A stretch of DNA of 64,000 nt, from contig NZ_AMXD01000001.1 in the NCBI RefSeq assembly GCF_000310185.1, positions 62,001 through 126,000 on the forward strand, given 5' to 3'. Source of the stretch: Thauera aminoaromatica S2. GTDB lineage: Bacteria; Pseudomonadota; Gammaproteobacteria; Burkholderiales; Rhodocyclaceae. Shown here piece by piece: positions 24,084 through 61,571 of this stretch. The position numbers were made by a program, and so were the translations under genes. The notes beneath the pieces are model-generated. The model searched no databases. It was not told the origin of the DNA and saw only the letters and a program-made list of their open reading frames with translations. The first letter of the stretch is position 1, and every line of letters starts with the position of its first letter.

Positions 24084-24830
24084 ATGCGCATCCCTCGCTT
24101 CGCGCCGTCCCGCACCGTCCTTGTCGTCGCGCTGCTGATGGCCGCGGCCCTGACAACGGCCGCATGGCTCGGCCTGCGGCCGCAGTCGCCGCCCGCCGAA
24201 CCCGATTTTCCTTCGGCAGAAGCAACGCCTGCGCCGGCAACGGCACCAGCCGGCCCGCCCTGGCGCTATGGCCGCGCCGATGCGCGCTTCACGGTGGTCG
24301 AGTACGCCGACCTCGAATGCCCGTTCTGCCGCGCCTACTTCGCAGTGCTCAAGCGCTGGATCGACGCGCACCCGGACGTGAGCTGGCAATGGCATCACCT
24401 GCCGTTGCCGTTGCACGAGCCGGCCGCGTCTGCCGGTGCGCGCCTGGTGGAGTGCGTCGGCGAGGCCGGCGGCCAGGCCGCGTTCTGGCAGGCCGCCGAG
24501 TGGGTCTACACGCACACCCGCGGCGACGGTCAGGGCCTGCCCGAGGGCCTGCGCTATCCCGACCTCACGCCGGCCGCGCAGCAGTGCCTCGACAGCGACC
24601 GCCCCGATGCGCTGATCCGCGCACAGTCGGCGAGCGCGGCGCAGGAGGGCATCAAGGTCACGCCCACGCTGCGCCTGCAGGATCGCCAGTCCGGCAAGAC
24701 GCTGCTGCTGCACGGCCCGGTCGAAGGAGATGCCTTGCTGTCCGCGATCGACCTGCTGGCGGCCAGTGCAGCGGCCGAGCCCGCATCGAAGGAAATGCCT
24801 GCCGAGTCTCTCGGAGACATGCCCAGGTAG
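24084..24830 (+). CDS. DsbA-like thiol:disulfide oxidoreductase, ICE-associated
   Basis: A 248-residue protein with an N-terminal membrane anchor or signal (VLVVALLMAAALTTAAWLGL). The thioredoxin-fold DsbA-type domain has active site CPFC (Cys79, Cys82) in YADLECPFCRAYF and the cis-Pro loop region IKVTPTLRL. It probably forms or corrects disulfides in periplasmic transfer proteins, several of which contain paired cysteines. The start at 24084 follows the traC stop by 13 bp. The Ala/Pro-rich segment after the anchor is a linker. Confidence 0.87.
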   Translation: MRIPRFAPSRTVLVVALLMAAALTTAAWLGLRPQSPPAEPDFPSAEATPAPATAPAGPPWRYGRADARFTVVEYADLECPFCRAYFAVLKRWIDAHPDVSWQWHHLPLPLHEPAASAGARLVECVGEAGGQAAFWQAAEWVYTHTRGDGQGLPEGLRYPDLTPAAQQCLDSDRPDALIRAQSASAAQEGIKVTPTLRLQDRQSGKTLLLHGPVEGDALLSAIDLLAASAAAEPASKEMPAESLGDMPR

Positions 24831-24962
24831 CCACGATCTTCAAGGCTACGACGCGGCTTGGCCGTGCTGATCGACCCCGTTCGCTGCGCATCCCTGGACG
24901 CGAACAGCCACTGTGCATGCGGTGGCGGATGCCCGCTCTTCTGCCGCTTGTTCTTCATCGTC

Positions 24963-53614: not shown

Positions 53615-56014
53615 CTAGGGGCTCGGCAAGGCGGTGGCGCCCGGCAAGCCCGCGGCCACCGCCTGCGCTCGAATGTTGCTGGCCGTTTTCGGGTCCTTTG
53701 TACGCAGCCGAGCGAACGCCAATGCAGCTCGCTGTGAGTCACCCGTCATTAGATTGGCTAGGGTTGCAATGCCCAGCGCAACAGGCAGTTCAGGCTGCCG
53801 AGCAAGGATGGTCTCGGCATACGCGCGCGCCTTCGCCGCATCACGGATGCCAAGGTAGGCCTGGGCGAGATAAAGCTGGGCGTCGAGCGCCTGCGGCGCG
53901 AGCGCTAGTGCCTTTTCCAGCGCGGGAATGGCACGGCCAACATCGCGGTTGCGCAGATGAGCATGGCCGAGGTTGATCCAGGCATTGGCGAGCTTTGGAT
54001 CGTACAGCACGGCCTGCTCGAGGATCGACACGGCGGCGGCCGGCTGGCCACGCAACAGAAGGATGTAGGCCTTACTGCTGAGCGCATTGGCGTTGCGCGG
54101 GTCGCTTGCAAGGGCCCGATCGAGGTAAGCCAGGGACTTGTCGAGGTCGCCGTTGCGGCCGTGGAAACCTGCTAGGTTAGCGAGCATGCGCGAGTGTCGG
54201 GGATCCATGCGTTCGGCACGTTCGAAGGCTTCCAGCGCCTCGCTGCGGTCGCCGAGTCTCCCGAGGAGATCGCCGAGGTCTGCCAGATCCTCGACTCCAG
54301 CTTTTCCCAGCGCATCGACGCGTCGATAGGCCGTAGCCGCAGCGCGCAGATCCTGTGCCGTGATGCTGTGGATCGCCAGCGTGCGCCAGGCGCGCGGCTC
54401 GTCCGGCGCAAGCTCGGTCAGATGGCGGGCATCAGCCACTGCGCCCGCTGCGTTGCCACGCCGGGCACGCAGCGCTGCGCGCTCGAGGCGCGCTTCGAAG
54501 AGTGTCGGATCAAGCTCGAGCGCACGCTCTAACACCGTCGCGAGCTCGTCGTCACGCAGTGTTCGCGCCAGGGTCATGCCAAGCTTTTCCCACCCTTCCG
54601 CAAAACCAGGGTCGGCGGCCACCGCCTTGCGGAAAGCGTCCTCGGCGGCGGCGTACCGCTGACGGTTGTAGTCGGTGATGCCGAGTGCGAGCCAAGTGGG
54701 CGCATCGGTCCTCGCGTCGCCACGTCCAGTGGCGAGTGCACGATGGGCCTCATCGGCGCGCCCCGCCTCGGCCAGGAGTCGGGCCAGTGCGTTGCGCGCC
54801 TCCTCGCTGTTCTGGTTAAGGTCGAGCGCGGTTTGGAAGGCGCGTTGCGCCGCGTCGGAGTCGCCGAGCGCACGGCGGATGCTGCCGAGCAGATTCCAAT
54901 AGCCGTAAGAGAAAGGGTCGAAGGCGAGTGCGCGTTCGATGTTGGACAAAGCGGCTCGAGCATCGTCAGCCTTGAGCAGCCAGTGCGCACGCGCCGCGGC
55001 TACGCTCGCATCGCCGGGCTGGAGGGCCTCTGCGCGCGCCAGTGCCTGCTCGGCCTCGGCATGACGCCCGGTTTCATAAAGGGTAATGGCGAGGACGCGC
55101 CAGCTCTCCGCGGAGTGCTCATCGAGGCGGAGCGCCTCACGCAGTGCGGGCTCGGCGTCCTTCGGTCGTCCAAGACGGACTGTCGCGCGCGCGAGCTCCT
55201 GGTGTGCGCGTGCGGAGGTCGGCTGTGCAGAGATCCAACGGCGTGCATGGCTTTCGAGCTCCACCCACCGCGCCGCAGCGCCCAGGGCGACGGCATCGGC
55301 AATCCATTGCGGTTCCGCAGCGGGGACGTCGGACGGCGGCGGCGGAGCTACGCTGCGATCGGCGAGTTCGTTGATCCAGTCCGCCGGCAGCGCCAGGTTG
55401 AGGTTCTGGCCGGCACTGAACACACTGGTGGTCAAGCCCACCAGTCGGCCCTCGGCATCGAACAGCCCGCCGCCGCTGGAGCCCGGAGACTGTGCGGCGC
55501 TGCTGAGGATCAGCCGTTCGCCATCCACGGTCGGGAAGTGTGAGACCAGGCCGCTCGTCACCGCCAGGCCGAAGCCCAGGGGATTACCGACTGCATGCAC
55601 GCGCTCACCCGGTAAGACGGTCGCCAGCGAGCGGATGCGCACCGACGGCGCCTGCAGTCCGTCGACCGCGAGCACGCACAGGTCACGGCTGCGATCGGCT
55701 TTGACCCAGCGTGCCGATAGCTCAGCGGCACCATGTTGTACCTTCAGCCGGTCCGCATCGCGGACGACATGGCAATTGGTCGCCACGTGCCCACGGCTGA
55801 CCACCACGCCACTGCCTTGACCGCTAGCGGTCCCGCCATCGACTTCTGCGATGACCGTCACCACCGACGGTGCGACTCGGGTGAACACCGGCTGGGCGTC
55901 GTCGGCCGCAGCCGCCGGGGCAGCGGAACAGACCGCGAGGAGGAGCAACAGCGCTGGGGCCGGAACGTGACTCGGAATGCAGGCACAGCGTGTGGAAACG
56001 AGACGGAGTTTCAT
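53615..56014 (-). CDS. Trypsin-like serine protease fused to TPR repeats (active triad)
   Basis: A 799-residue exported protein. A signal peptide (ALLLLLAVCSAAPAAAAD) leads to a trypsin/HtrA-like domain (about 45-225) with the full triad: His82 (TNCHVV), Asp111 (RSRDLCVL) and Ser180 (SPGSSGGGL). About 500 residues of tetratricopeptide repeats follow, with typical A..A..ALALDP.....W..LG.....G spacing. No PDZ domain is seen. The repeats probably bind substrates or partners in the periplasm. The start at 56014 overlaps the upstream paralogue stop (ATGA). Confidence 0.9.
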   Translation of the reverse strand: MKLRLVSTRCACIPSHVPAPALLLLLAVCSAAPAAAADDAQPVFTRVAPSVVTVIAEVDGGTASGQGSGVVVSRGHVATNCHVVRDADRLKVQHGAAELSARWVKADRSRDLCVLAVDGLQAPSVRIRSLATVLPGERVHAVGNPLGFGLAVTSGLVSHFPTVDGERLILSSAAQSPGSSGGGLFDAEGRLVGLTTSVFSAGQNLNLALPADWINELADRSVAPPPPSDVPAAEPQWIADAVALGAAARWVELESHARRWISAQPTSARAHQELARATVRLGRPKDAEPALREALRLDEHSAESWRVLAITLYETGRHAEAEQALARAEALQPGDASVAAARAHWLLKADDARAALSNIERALAFDPFSYGYWNLLGSIRRALGDSDAAQRAFQTALDLNQNSEEARNALARLLAEAGRADEAHRALATGRGDARTDAPTWLALGITDYNRQRYAAAEDAFRKAVAADPGFAEGWEKLGMTLARTLRDDELATVLERALELDPTLFEARLERAALRARRGNAAGAVADARHLTELAPDEPRAWRTLAIHSITAQDLRAAATAYRRVDALGKAGVEDLADLGDLLGRLGDRSEALEAFERAERMDPRHSRMLANLAGFHGRNGDLDKSLAYLDRALASDPRNANALSSKAYILLLRGQPAAAVSILEQAVLYDPKLANAWINLGHAHLRNRDVGRAIPALEKALALAPQALDAQLYLAQAYLGIRDAAKARAYAETILARQPELPVALGIATLANLMTGDSQRAALAFARLRTKDPKTASNIRAQAVAAGLPGATALPSP

Positions 56015-57825
56015 TGCGGGCGGGCCTCGTCGGGGTGGATGGTGGCGAGATAGGCGCGCTCGGCCATGGCGGCATCCAGGCTGCGTAGGTTGCCGTGTGC
56101 GCGGACGAGGTCGGCACGGCGGCCCGCTGCGCGGTACAGGATCATCAACGCATTCCACACCCGTGGCTGGCCTGGATCGAGTGCAAGCGAGCGCTCGAGC
56201 GCCTCAATTCCCTCGGGTGCCCTGGCTGCGAGCACTTGCGCATAGCCGAGCTGGCGCCAGATCCGCGGTTCGTTCGGATAAGCAACGGACAGATCGCGGT
56301 TAATCCGGATCGCTTCATCGAGATGGCCTCCATCCTTCAGTGCGACCGCCAGCCAGTAGCGATGGTCGGGATCGTCCGGAGCGATCCGTACCGCCTCGCG
56401 CATTGCAGCGATAGCCTCGGGGAAGCGTTCCAGCACGAAGAGCGCTTTGCCGAGCTCGGTCCACGCACGGGCCGGCTCGGACGGCCCCTTCGCCAGGCTG
56501 GCACGGAACAGCTCGCTCGCCGCCTGTGGCCGACCCAGCAGCGCAGCGGTTGCGCCGCGCCAGAACAAGCCGTCGGCGCTGTCGGCAAGCTCTGACGGGA
56601 AGCGGGCGAGCAGCTTGTGGGCACGCGTACCATCCTGCGCGAACAGGAGCGCTTCCACCAGGCGCCAGCGCAGTTCTGGCCGTGAGGGGTAGAGGCGAAC
56701 CAACCTGCTCCATCCTTCCGCGGCTACTCGATGGTCGCCGCGCTGGCCGGCAAGCGAGATCAAACCCAGATGGGCGGACATTTCCCACGGATCGAGCGCA
56801 AGCGCCTTGCGGTAGGCCGTTTCTGCCTCGCTGACGCCACCACTACCATGGTGTGCCTGGCCGAGCAGCGACCACGCTGCGGCGCTTTCGGGACGGGTTC
56901 CGACGAGCGCGGCGGCTGCTTCCCGCGCCTCGGCGAAGCGCTGCTGACGAAGCAGGGCTCCGGCTACACCAAGCTCAGCCACCGTCATGCTACCCGCCCG
57001 AAGTACCGCATGGCGCCAAGCAGCCTCCTCGCCGACGAAGTCACCTTGCATGCTGGCTGCAACCGCTCGCCAAGTCCAGCCGTCAGCATCCTCCGGGTAA
57101 AGCCGCGTCCATTCCATAGCCAGGCGGACGAGCGCTTCGCCGTCCCCTACACGCGCCAGCCGCGGCGCACGGTCGCGCAACGACTGGAGCGCCGTATCAG
57201 TGTCGTGGCGCGCTTCAATCATGCTTGCCCAGGCCGCCGGCATAGCGAAATTCACGTTCTGGCCTTCGCGCTGGCGATAGTCGATGACGCCAATCAACCG
57301 GCCCTGTTCGTCGAGCAGCGCCCCACCTTCAGAACCAGGAGAGACCGGCGCGGAGAACTGCAGCAACTCGCCGCGCTCGCCGCCACCGAGTCCCGAGATC
57401 ACGCCTTCAGTCAAACCAACGCCGAAGCCGAGCGCATCGGAGAGCGCGTAAATCCGTGATCCGACGCGGGGCTGTGCGCCCGCTGGCGCTACAGCCAAAG
57501 TCCGCGCATTCGCAGACGCGCTCAGCAGGCAAAGGTTACGCCCGCGATCCCGCGCAATCACGCGGGCGTCGACCGTCCGCCCACCTGCTTCGGCCAGGCG
57601 GATCGCATCGCTGCCGTCGAGCGGGCTACACAAGGTCACGAAGCGCTCCGTGGCGACCGCAATCGCGCTGACGGTGCCGATGGGCGCGCCTTCGGCATCG
57701 AACGTCCGTACCGTCAGCACGCCGTCGCGGACGGCCGTGAACAGCACGCTGGGAGCTAGAGAGCTCGCATGACTAGAGACAGCCACTCCGAGCGCCAGAG
57801 CAGCCAGCAAGACAATGCGCAACAT
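56011..57825 (-). CDS. Trypsin-like/TPR fusion with replaced catalytic residues
   Basis: A 604-residue paralogue of the next gene, with signal peptide (IVLLAALALGVAVSSHAS), trypsin-like domain and TPR array. Aligned with its partner, all three triad positions differ: Ser67 for His (VTLCSPL), Asn97 for Asp (DRGRNLCLL) and Glu166 for Ser (SPGSEGGALL). The fold landmarks, such as LGFGVGLTEGVISG, are kept. It is thus a predicted pseudoprotease. CAGGAG precedes the ATG at 57825. It is first in the coupled two-gene unit, so the dead copy is made before the active one. Confidence 0.88.
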   Translation of the reverse strand: MLRIVLLAALALGVAVSSHASSLAPSVLFTAVRDGVLTVRTFDAEGAPIGTVSAIAVATERFVTLCSPLDGSDAIRLAEAGGRTVDARVIARDRGRNLCLLSASANARTLAVAPAGAQPRVGSRIYALSDALGFGVGLTEGVISGLGGGERGELLQFSAPVSPGSEGGALLDEQGRLIGVIDYRQREGQNVNFAMPAAWASMIEARHDTDTALQSLRDRAPRLARVGDGEALVRLAMEWTRLYPEDADGWTWRAVAASMQGDFVGEEAAWRHAVLRAGSMTVAELGVAGALLRQQRFAEAREAAAALVGTRPESAAAWSLLGQAHHGSGGVSEAETAYRKALALDPWEMSAHLGLISLAGQRGDHRVAAEGWSRLVRLYPSRPELRWRLVEALLFAQDGTRAHKLLARFPSELADSADGLFWRGATAALLGRPQAASELFRASLAKGPSEPARAWTELGKALFVLERFPEAIAAMREAVRIAPDDPDHRYWLAVALKDGGHLDEAIRINRDLSVAYPNEPRIWRQLGYAQVLAARAPEGIEALERSLALDPGQPRVWNALMILYRAAGRRADLVRAHGNLRSLDAAMAERAYLATIHPDEARPQ

Positions 57826-58309
57826 ATGGGAGCTCCTGAAATTGCGGCCCGGCTCTCGAACGCGATGTGACGAAAAAGCGTGGGCACCGATCCGTAGATA
57901 ATGACAAGTGCAGGTGACGGAATATCGCACGATAATGAAGAAGACATGAAGCGGGACACGTCCCGGGAGATTGCCAGCTGCCGACCAGGATCGGACTGGT
58001 GAGCAGACCGTTTAGGGGATAGGTGCGTCGTGATCAGGCAAATTGAACCCTTTTGTCTAACGGCTGGATGCCACCCCCAGCAACGGCGCGGTTTCGAGCC
58101 CGTCCTTCTTGCCGTACTTTGGACAAAACGAACATGGGGGAGCTGACCGTCTGGCAGCAACCCAAGTGGAGCGGTCGTTCGAGCGGCAACTCTACCTGCG
58201 GACAGGACGGCAGGTCATGGCCGATAGTACGCTGTGGGCATCTTCCCCGATAGCCGCCGCACGCCACGGGCTCAAGAATCAGACTCCGATCAACAGCAAG
58301 GAGTTTGTC
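57826..58309. other. Intergenic region with attC-like repeat
   Basis: 484 bp between divergent genes: the pseudoprotease (left) and the stand-alone recombinase (right). No protein-coding region could be supported. It contains the inverted repeat described at 58051-58128. GCAAGGAG just before 58310 is the ribosome site of the recombinase. Confidence 0.6.
58051..58128 (+). repeat. attC-like imperfect inverted repeat 1
   Basis: TTTTGTCTAAC (58051-58061) and the inverted TTTGGACAAAA (58118-58128) match in 9 of 11 positions. They contain GTCTAAC, a perfect RYYYAAC core, and TTTGGAC, one base from the GTTRRRY core of integron attC sites. The span between cores is within the attC size range, but internal pairing is weak. 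Confidence 0.4.
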
Positions 58310-58930
58310 ATGGAAACCCGAGAACATCCGCATCGGGAAGCCTGGAACAAGGGGAAGCTGGTGGGCCAGAAGGCACCGCTCAAACCCAAGGACATCTGGG
58401 CCATCCGTATTCATCTGCAGAACGCGCACGAAGTCCGTGACCTCGCCATGTTCAACCTCGCGATCGATAGCAAGCTCCGAGGGTGTGACCTCGTCAGCCT
58501 GCGGGTGCGCGACGTGACCCATGGAAACCAGGTGCTCTCACGCGCCATGGTCGTGCAACGGAAAACGCAGCGGCCTGTGCAGTTCGAACTGACCGAGCCC
58601 ACGCGTACGGCTGTGGCTGCCTGGATCGCGAAGGCCGGCCTGAGGGCGGAGGACTTCCTCTTTCCGAGCCGCCTGCACGACTCACCGCATGTCTCTACCC
58701 GTCAGTACGCGAGGATCGTCGAGCACTGGGTGGTGGCCGCCGGCCTCGATCCGTCCGCCTACGGTACGCACTCGATGCGACGCACGAAGGCGACATTGAT
58801 CTACAAGCGCACGAAGAACCTGCGGGCGGTGCAACTCCTGCTGGGTCACTCCAAGCTCGAGTCGACGGTGCGGTACTTGGGCATCGAGGTCGATGATGCC
58901 TTGGAGATCTCCGAGCAGATTGAGATCTGA
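58310..58930 (+). CDS. Stand-alone tyrosine recombinase
   Basis: A 206-residue protein made almost only of a tyrosine-recombinase catalytic domain: Arg in SKLRGCDLVSLRV, HSMRRTKATLI and LLGHSKLESTVRYLGIE, with the tyrosine in the last. The length is similar to FimB/FimE-type switches. The ATG at 58310 has AAGGAG; longer upstream reading is not conserved. No phage or ICE genes adjoin it. Two attC-like inverted repeats flank it at about 180 bp and 200 bp. Its substrate is unknown. Confidence 0.87.
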   Translation: METREHPHREAWNKGKLVGQKAPLKPKDIWAIRIHLQNAHEVRDLAMFNLAIDSKLRGCDLVSLRVRDVTHGNQVLSRAMVVQRKTQRPVQFELTEPTRTAVAAWIAKAGLRAEDFLFPSRLHDSPHVSTRQYARIVEHWVVAAGLDPSAYGTHSMRRTKATLIYKRTKNLRAVQLLLGHSKLESTVRYLGIEVDDALEISEQIEI

Positions 58931-59479: not shown

Positions 59480-60688
59480 TCATGAGGTCACCCCACGGAG
59501 TGGTGGCGCGCGGATCGTCGCACCCCGAGCAAAGGTTTCGATCACGCGCATCACCGATCCACAGCAGCGACACACGAAGCCGGTGGTGGGCGTGGTCGAC
59601 AGCGCGGTGGCTTCCGGCGCCGAGGCGATGGTGCATGGCTCGTCTGGAGGCGTTGCGCCAAGCAGTTCCCGCGCACGTGCCAGGTGCTGCCGCCGTCCCG
59701 CGTTGGCGAGCAGTCCGTAGTGCCGGATGCGGTGGAAGCCGCACGGCAGCACGTGCAGCAGGAAACGGCGCATGAACTCCCCGGCGGTGAGCGTCATCGT
59801 CTTGTGGCGGGTGCGCCCCTCGGCGCGATAGTCCTTCCAGCGGAAGGAGACGCTGCCGGCGTCGAGCGACACCAGGCGACGGTTCGAGATCGCCACCCGA
59901 TGGGTGTAGCGCGACAGGTAGGCGAGCACCGCCTCGGGGCCGGCGAAGGGCCGCTTGGCATAGACGACCCATTCGCTCGTGCGCAGCGGCGCGAGCCAGC
60001 GCAGGAACGCGGCCAGTTGTGCCAGCGGGGCGAACTCGCCGAAGAAGCGCAGCACGCCGGCGTGATGCGCCTTCGCCAGCTCTTCCAGGAAACGCCGCCG
60101 GAACAGCCGTGAGAGCACGCGGACCGGCAGGAAGAAGCCACGCCGGCAGGCAATCCAGCGCTGCCCGTCGGCCGACAGGCCGCCCCCGGGGACGATGCCG
60201 TGCACGTGCGGGTGGTGCGTCATCGCCGAACCCCACGTGTGCAGCACGAGCGTGGCGCCGATCGTCGCGCCGAGGTGCTTCGGGTCGGCAGCGATGGTGA
60301 GCAGCGTCTCGGCGGCGACCTCGAACAGCAGCCGATAGACGAGCGCCTTGTTCGTGTAGGCGAACGCGCTGATCGGCGCCGGCAGCGTGAAGACCACGTG
60401 GTAATACTCGACCGGCAGCAGGTCCGCCTGCCGGGCCTCGAGCCAACGCTGGGCAGCCCGCGCCTGACACTTCGGGCAGTGCCGGTTGCGGCACGAGTTG
60501 TAGCTGATGTCGATCTGCTCGCAGGCCTCACAGCGCAGCACATGCCCACCCAGCGCCGCAGTGCGGCACTGTTCGATGGCCGACATGACCTTCAACTGCC
60601 CGAGGCTCAAGTGATCGTGCTGGGCGAGACGCCACGCCGGCCCGAAGGCGCGGAAGATGTCCGCGACCTCCAGTGCGGAGCGGACCAC
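59480..60688 (-). CDS. IS91-family transposase (HUH Y1-type)
   Basis: A 402-residue transposase. The N-terminal zinc-binding region has paired cysteines (LRCEACEQ; NSCRNRHCPKCQ). The HUH motif lies in HHPHVHGIVPGGG, and the catalytic tyrosine region is AYLSRYTHRVAISNRRL. It nicks and transfers single-stranded DNA by a rolling-circle-like mechanism. The start is GTG at 60688, consistent with the family N-terminus (FRAFGPAWRLAQ). The gene is intact. Confidence 0.93.
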   Translation of the reverse strand: MVRSALEVADIFRAFGPAWRLAQHDHLSLGQLKVMSAIEQCRTAALGGHVLRCEACEQIDISYNSCRNRHCPKCQARAAQRWLEARQADLLPVEYYHVVFTLPAPISAFAYTNKALVYRLLFEVAAETLLTIAADPKHLGATIGATLVLHTWGSAMTHHPHVHGIVPGGGLSADGQRWIACRRGFFLPVRVLSRLFRRRFLEELAKAHHAGVLRFFGEFAPLAQLAAFLRWLAPLRTSEWVVYAKRPFAGPEAVLAYLSRYTHRVAISNRRLVSLDAGSVSFRWKDYRAEGRTRHKTMTLTAGEFMRRFLLHVLPCGFHRIRHYGLLANAGRRQHLARARELLGATPPDEPCTIASAPEATALSTTPTTGFVCRCCGSVMRVIETFARGATIRAPPLRGVTS

Positions 60689-60695
60689 GATGCGC

Positions 60696-61571
60696 CTACG
60701 CCGACTGCAAGGTCTCCAGCGGACTGACGACTTCGCGCAGCAGGTCGGTGGCGACCTGGGTGTAGATCACCGTGGTGTCGAGTTTCTTGTGGCCGAGCAG
60801 CGCCTGGATGATGCGGATGTCGACCTTCTGCTCGAGCAGGTGGGTCGCGAAGCAGTGGCGAAGCGTGTGCATCGACACCCGCTTGTCGATGCCGGCCGCC
60901 AGGGCGGCGGCCTGAACAGCGCGATTGAGTTGGCGCGGGCTCAGTGACTCGATCGGGTTGAGGCCCGGGAACAACCAGCCGCCATCGAGCATTTTGCCCT
61001 GCGCCCGGGCGACCCGCCACCACACGCGCAACCGCTCCAGCAGCAGGGGCGAGAGCATCGCGTAGCGATCCTTGCGGCCTTTGCCTTGCTCGACCCGCAG
61101 GGTCATGCGCCCGCTGTCGACGTCGCTGACCTTGAGCGAGACCACTTCGCTCGCTCGCAGTCCGGTCGCGTAGGCGAGCGACAGCGCCGTCTGGTGCTTG
61201 AGATTGTTGCAGGCGGCGATCAGGCGCGCGACCTCCTCGCGGCTGAGCACCACCGGCAAGCGCTGCGGCAGCCGGACCGGCTGCATTCGTGCCATCAACT
61301 CGCCGCGTTGAAGCGTGATATCGAAGAAGAACTTCAGCCCGCTGATGGCGGCGTTGAGCGACATCGGCGAGGTGCCGGTATCGACCAGGTGCAACTGGTA
61401 GTTGCGCAGGTCCTCCACCGTGGCGCTATCGGGCGCGCGCCCCAGATAGCGCGTGAACCGGCACACCGCACGGATGTACGCACTCTGCGTCTTGGGGGTG
61501 AGCTTGCGCATCCGCATGTCGTCGAGCATGCGCTGGCGCAAGGGGCTGACGGGACGAGTCGGGGTGTCCAT
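60696..61571 (-). CDS. Tyrosine recombinase accompanying the IS91-type transposase
   Basis: A 291-residue XerC/D-like recombinase. The N-terminal SAM-like domain (LRQRMLDDMRMRKLTPKTQSAY) is followed by the catalytic domain: Arg in YATGLRASEVVSLKV, HTLRHCFATHLLE, and LLGHKKLDTTVIYTQVA with the tyrosine. It lies 7 bp before the transposase gene on the same strand. It may resolve transposition intermediates, but its role has not been shown. Confidence 0.92.
   Translation of the reverse strand: MDTPTRPVSPLRQRMLDDMRMRKLTPKTQSAYIRAVCRFTRYLGRAPDSATVEDLRNYQLHLVDTGTSPMSLNAAISGLKFFFDITLQRGELMARMQPVRLPQRLPVVLSREEVARLIAACNNLKHQTALSLAYATGLRASEVVSLKVSDVDSGRMTLRVEQGKGRKDRYAMLSPLLLERLRVWWRVARAQGKMLDGGWLFPGLNPIESLSPRQLNRAVQAAALAAGIDKRVSMHTLRHCFATHLLEQKVDIRIIQALLGHKKLDTTVIYTQVATDLLREVVSPLETLQSA

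Follow-up and report, generated by a model that had tools for sequence, protein, structure and literature searches.

In a 64,000-nt stretch of the Thauera aminoaromatica S2 genome (hereafter the window), two overlapping genes encode a predicted active S1 protease and, directly upstream, a paralog that lost its catalytic triad in one ancient event and has been maintained under purifying selection. We refer to the upstream product as UP and to the downstream product as DN (Table 1). The long persistence of UP beside DN in related bacteria suggests that the inactive copy assists or regulates the active one. The reading that we favor, at a probability of roughly 0.6, is that UP serves active DN as a dedicated pseudoprotease partner and sets the activity or substrate choice of DN, so that the two form one functional unit. 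Because the arrangement and the triad loss recur in 27 pairs, the observation in the window is not due to chance.

Table 1. Features of the UP/DN gene pair, in window coordinates.
Feature	Position	Strand	Basis
UP (604 aa + stop): S1 (Trypsin_2) pseudoprotease, signal-peptide-like start, C-terminal TPR superhelix	56011..57825	-	sequence, Pfam, model
DN (799 aa + stop): S1 protease, triad intact, signal-peptide-like start, long TPR superhelix	53615..56014	-	sequence, Pfam, model
ATGA overlap of UP stop and DN start, 4 nt	56011..56014	-	sequence; exactly 4 nt in 27/27 pairs
Shine-Dalgarno AGGAG of UP	57833..57837	-	sequence
UP codon Ser67, at catalytic His place	57625..57627	-	alignment
UP codon Asn97, at catalytic Asp place	57535..57537	-	alignment
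UP codon Glu166, at catalytic Ser place	57328..57330	-	alignment
DN codon, catalytic His82	55769..55771	-	alignment
DN codon, catalytic Asp111	55682..55684	-	alignment
DN codon, catalytic Ser180	55475..55477	-	alignment

UP and DN have a common domain order: a signal-peptide-like hydrophobic stretch at the start, a Trypsin_2 domain after it and a TPR array last. Using Pfam profiles, we found that Trypsin_2 (PF13365) scores 67.0 bits in UP and 92.6 bits in DN, both above the curated cut-off of 27.6, and that both proteins match TPR models; the PDZ model matched neither, so the C-terminal PDZ domain that defines HtrA/Deg proteases is missing from the profile matches of both. The two sequences are approximately 26-28% identical over most of their length, which bears out the preliminary description of the window, where they had been presented as paralogs of a shared plan with an ATGA overlap and no PDZ domain. 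Their nearest named relative is in Parazoarcus communis SWub3, at 77% identity for UP and 78% for DN. Translation of UP is preceded by a good Shine-Dalgarno sequence 7 nt 5' of its ATG, and DN has only a weak one, which lies within the 3' end of UP. AlphaFold models, which were built from four sequences, are confident in the TPR parts, where UP has approximately 21 helices and DN 33, a count that corresponds to roughly 10 repeats in UP and 16 in DN. The protease domain of UP was modeled poorly, with a pLDDT of approximately 43-77 that is too low for active-site geometry, and the models are silent on contact between the two proteins. Fold searches with whole models returned lists filled by TPR matches and are hence uninformative about the protease domain, for which Deg proteases are the top sequence matches in the PDB.

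The residues assigned in the preliminary description were all correct by alignment: His82, Asp111 and Ser180 are invariant among DN sequences, Ser67, Asn97 and Glu166 of UP occupy the same columns, and UP retains the fold landmarks G-S-x-G-G and L-C. Across 28 scored loci, DN has the His in 28/28 and both Asp and Ser in the 27/27 that are readable, and 60 of the 62 solo relatives retain the whole triad. UP lacks both His at position 57 and Ser at position 195 (chymotrypsin numbering, as for 102 below) in all 27 pairs, and an upstream copy with a normal triad was not found in any of them. The proposed pairing of a pseudoprotease with an active protease is thereby upheld wherever DN can be read. 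By its triad, DN is predicted to be an active S1 protease, and the same measure sets UP apart.

The idea that Ser/Asn/Glu would be fixed in homologs did not hold. Position 57 is E in 11 UP sequences, D in 9, S in 2, G in 2, and R, N and A in one each; position 102 is N in 19, A in 3, and Q, R, D, E and G in one each; and position 195 is E in 20, Q in 3, and G, D, A and T in one each. The commonest set is [E/D]/N/E, from which the window itself departs with its Ser at 57. UP homologs consistently lack a working triad, whichever letters stand in its place. The recurrent acidic residues at 57 (E or D in 20/27) and 195 (E in 20/27) invite the explanation that the altered site performs new chemistry, such as the binding of a metal or ligand, and MamO, a pseudoprotease of magnetosomes, has gained metal binding, although at another site (PMC4794232). 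However, the tree places 11 letter changes at position 57, 6 at 102 and 6 at 195 within the UP clade, and such drift would not be expected of a strict new active site. With Ser at 57 in the window and Arg and Gly among the replaced positions in Parazoarcus as further counterexamples, we consider new chemistry highly unlikely.

To place the pair among genomes, we ran searches with the UP and DN alignments at three taxonomic levels: family (398 genomes), order (399) and class (369). These searches recovered 27 UP/DN pairs, all within one order and spread over four families; the count excludes one duplicate record (L135 = L008) and includes three pairs whose DN runs off a contig end (L012, L127 and L128). 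The class-wide search of 369 genomes yielded no full pair outside the order and only shorter single-gene relatives. As the preliminary description had anticipated, the two genes co-occur: DN was present in 22/22 genomes of the family sample that encode a full-length UP. The DN matches in that sample without a full UP were a genome with UP cut by a contig end (G773), one with a shorter solo relative (G697) and one with a decayed locus (G731). Within every pair, the overlap reads ATGA (26 pairs) or GTGA (one pair).

The distribution of the pair is patchy: in the genus of the window, two genomes carry it and at least 20 of those sampled do not. Close by on the upstream side of the pair in the window lie an integrase-family gene (58109-58930, +), an IS91-type transposase gene (59480-60688, -) and a second integrase-family gene (60696-61571, -), and these mobile genes may bear on the patchiness. 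UP had no match on plasmids at 1e-20, and in PADLOC UP was unmatched and DN matched weakly, through generic protease and TPR domains only. Gene clustering detected no neighboring genes common to the three closest pairs (the window, SWub3 and G581), which indicates that the pair stayed together while its surroundings changed. Across all pairs there is no conserved third gene, with common neighbors restricted to small groups of pairs. A subtilase-family gene (Peptidase_S8) immediately precedes the pair on the same strand at only three loci, which fall into two distant branches of the tree (L118 3391-5814, +; L126 10589-12766, -; L127 5435-7729, +).

In the tree, UP forms one clade (100/99) and DN another (99/97), with near-mirror branching. 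Pairwise distances within UP and DN correlate at r = 0.87, a value that none of 5000 permutations reached; two linked genes inherited together could show such a correlation as well. Mapping the label 'inactive' onto the tree required three changes in all, with the inactive sequences consisting of the 27 UP proteins in their one clade and two J-domain proteins elsewhere, which shows that the triad was lost from UP in a single ancient event. Pairwise dN/dS of the protease domain spans 0.13-0.27 for UP versus 0.07-0.37 for DN, which shows that the UP domain is under purifying selection much like that of DN. With its fold family kept, its triad lost and its gene under purifying selection, UP is an S1 pseudoprotease. 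Some positions, such as Q156 and R206, are invariant in UP and not in DN; because Deg proteases carry Q at the same place in alignments, Q156 may be an ancestral Deg feature that DN has lost. The oxyanion glycine at position 193 (G164 of UP) is Gly in 26/27 UP sequences.

These results also bear on whether UP is simply a decaying duplicate, for which the missing triad and one decayed locus would speak. That locus, in G731, retains a single 539-aa ORF that fuses the TPR parts of UP and DN, with both protease domains gone (L140 4458-6077, -). It is the only such case: decay of the upstream copy, which would have undone the preliminary description had it been frequent, is rare. Given dN/dS well below 1, open frames in 27/27 pairs, the one ancient loss and the exact overlap, the chance that UP is decaying is close to negligible, and both the tree and the dN/dS values rule out decay as a general account of UP.

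Cysteines adjoin the places of the triad His and Asp in both proteins (Cys66/Cys99 in UP and Cys81/Cys113 in DN). They are present in all UP, all readable DN and 45/62 solo relatives, and the 17/62 solo relatives that lack them equal in number the Deg-type clade of the tree. A disulfide between the two is possible.

Under the partnership reading that we favor, both proteins would be exported through Sec-type signal peptides. UP would be made just before DN, and the translation of DN is probably coupled through the ATGA overlap, which would serve balanced amounts of the two. UP would then pair with DN, most likely through the protease domains, and this pairing would set the activity or substrate choice of DN. 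The two TPR superhelices would take over the job that PDZ domains do in HtrA, namely binding substrate or partner proteins. A more elaborate version, which we regard as doubtful, holds that UP and DN form an exported protease that is obligately heteromeric: the unequal TPR superhelices would choose the substrate, and the pseudo-active site, with its recurrent [E/D]/N/E set, would be a regulatory pocket for a ligand or peptide, which would make the pair a PDZ-free alternative to the HtrA plan.

The direction of any control by UP is suggested by analogy. In magnetosomes, proteolysis that depends on the protease MamE requires MamO, and active and inactive copies have been paired repeatedly in magnetotactic bacteria, a pattern interpreted there as an indication that such pairs are selected for (PMC4794232). 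Because of this analogy, activation of DN by UP seems likelier than inhibition. UP could instead be an inhibitor or holding partner that silences bound DN while in transit, or until it is displaced by a substrate, which would suit a protein that comes first in the pair and is retained together with DN; inactive homologs can restrain proteases, as iRhom2 is reported to do with ADAM17. Yet the TPR array of UP is long and conserved beyond what an inhibitor would need, and the closest bacterial precedent activates (PMC4794232), which leaves inhibition unlikely. UP might also be a scaffold or substrate receptor in the same pathway that never touches the protease domain of DN. TPR superhelices are generic binding modules, and the subtilase genes directly before three pairs hint that other proteases may be the partners. 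Still, UP maintains a full protease fold with invariant positions of its own, which suggests that the fold itself makes a contact, and we judge the scaffold quite improbable.

Several known systems resemble the pair in part. Like UP and DN, MamE and MamO are active and inactive Trypsin_2 proteases within one gene cluster (PMC4794232). MamO differs in its C-terminal TauE-like membrane domain, its altered L1 loop and its lack of Gly193, whereas UP ends in TPRs and keeps that glycine; the comparison with MamO is loose for this last reason. MamE carries PDZ and magnetochrome domains, whereas UP and DN are TPR proteins without PDZ, and the 4-nt gene overlap is a further difference from MamE/MamO. 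The HtrA/Deg proteases DegP, DegQ and DegS have a protease domain of the same family, but UP and DN carry a long TPR array in place of PDZ and the two conserved cysteines beside the triad His and Asp. CspA and CspC of Clostridioides difficile, which belong to the subtilisin (S8) family and work with their active relative CspB, are likewise bacterial pseudoproteases of regulatory function, but they act in spore germination and have no TPR. O-GlcNAc transferase and MamA resemble UP and DN in the TPR fold alone; both lack a protease domain, and we claim no kinship beyond the repeat.

A full-text search, with most subscription journals outside its reach, found no report of TPR-fused trypsin-like pairs. 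The pairing of live and dead S1 proteases is already known from magnetosomes, and what is new here is the presence of TPRs where PDZ would be, which amounts to a Deg-like protease with TPR substituted for PDZ. With the comparison limited to the two proteins, UP/DN is an independent live/dead S1 pair outside the magnetosome setting: the loss is single and ancient, the layout is a compact two-gene one, and 27 pairs exemplify it. How a dead protease serves its live sister thus becomes a testable question in ordinary betaproteobacteria.

A separate case of an active S1 copy beside a degenerating one is provided by the f22 family, which occurs as adjacent pairs of proteins that combine a J-domain-like region, a hydrophobic stretch and an S1 protease (L059 2-2037, +; L066 1540-3600, -; L061 1504-3522, -). 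In 2/3 genomes, one copy has a damaged triad, through Ser to Asn in L059 and Asp to Asn in L066. Elsewhere in the window, positions 24784-24932 (+) match the radC RNA motif (RF01754) at 111 bits.
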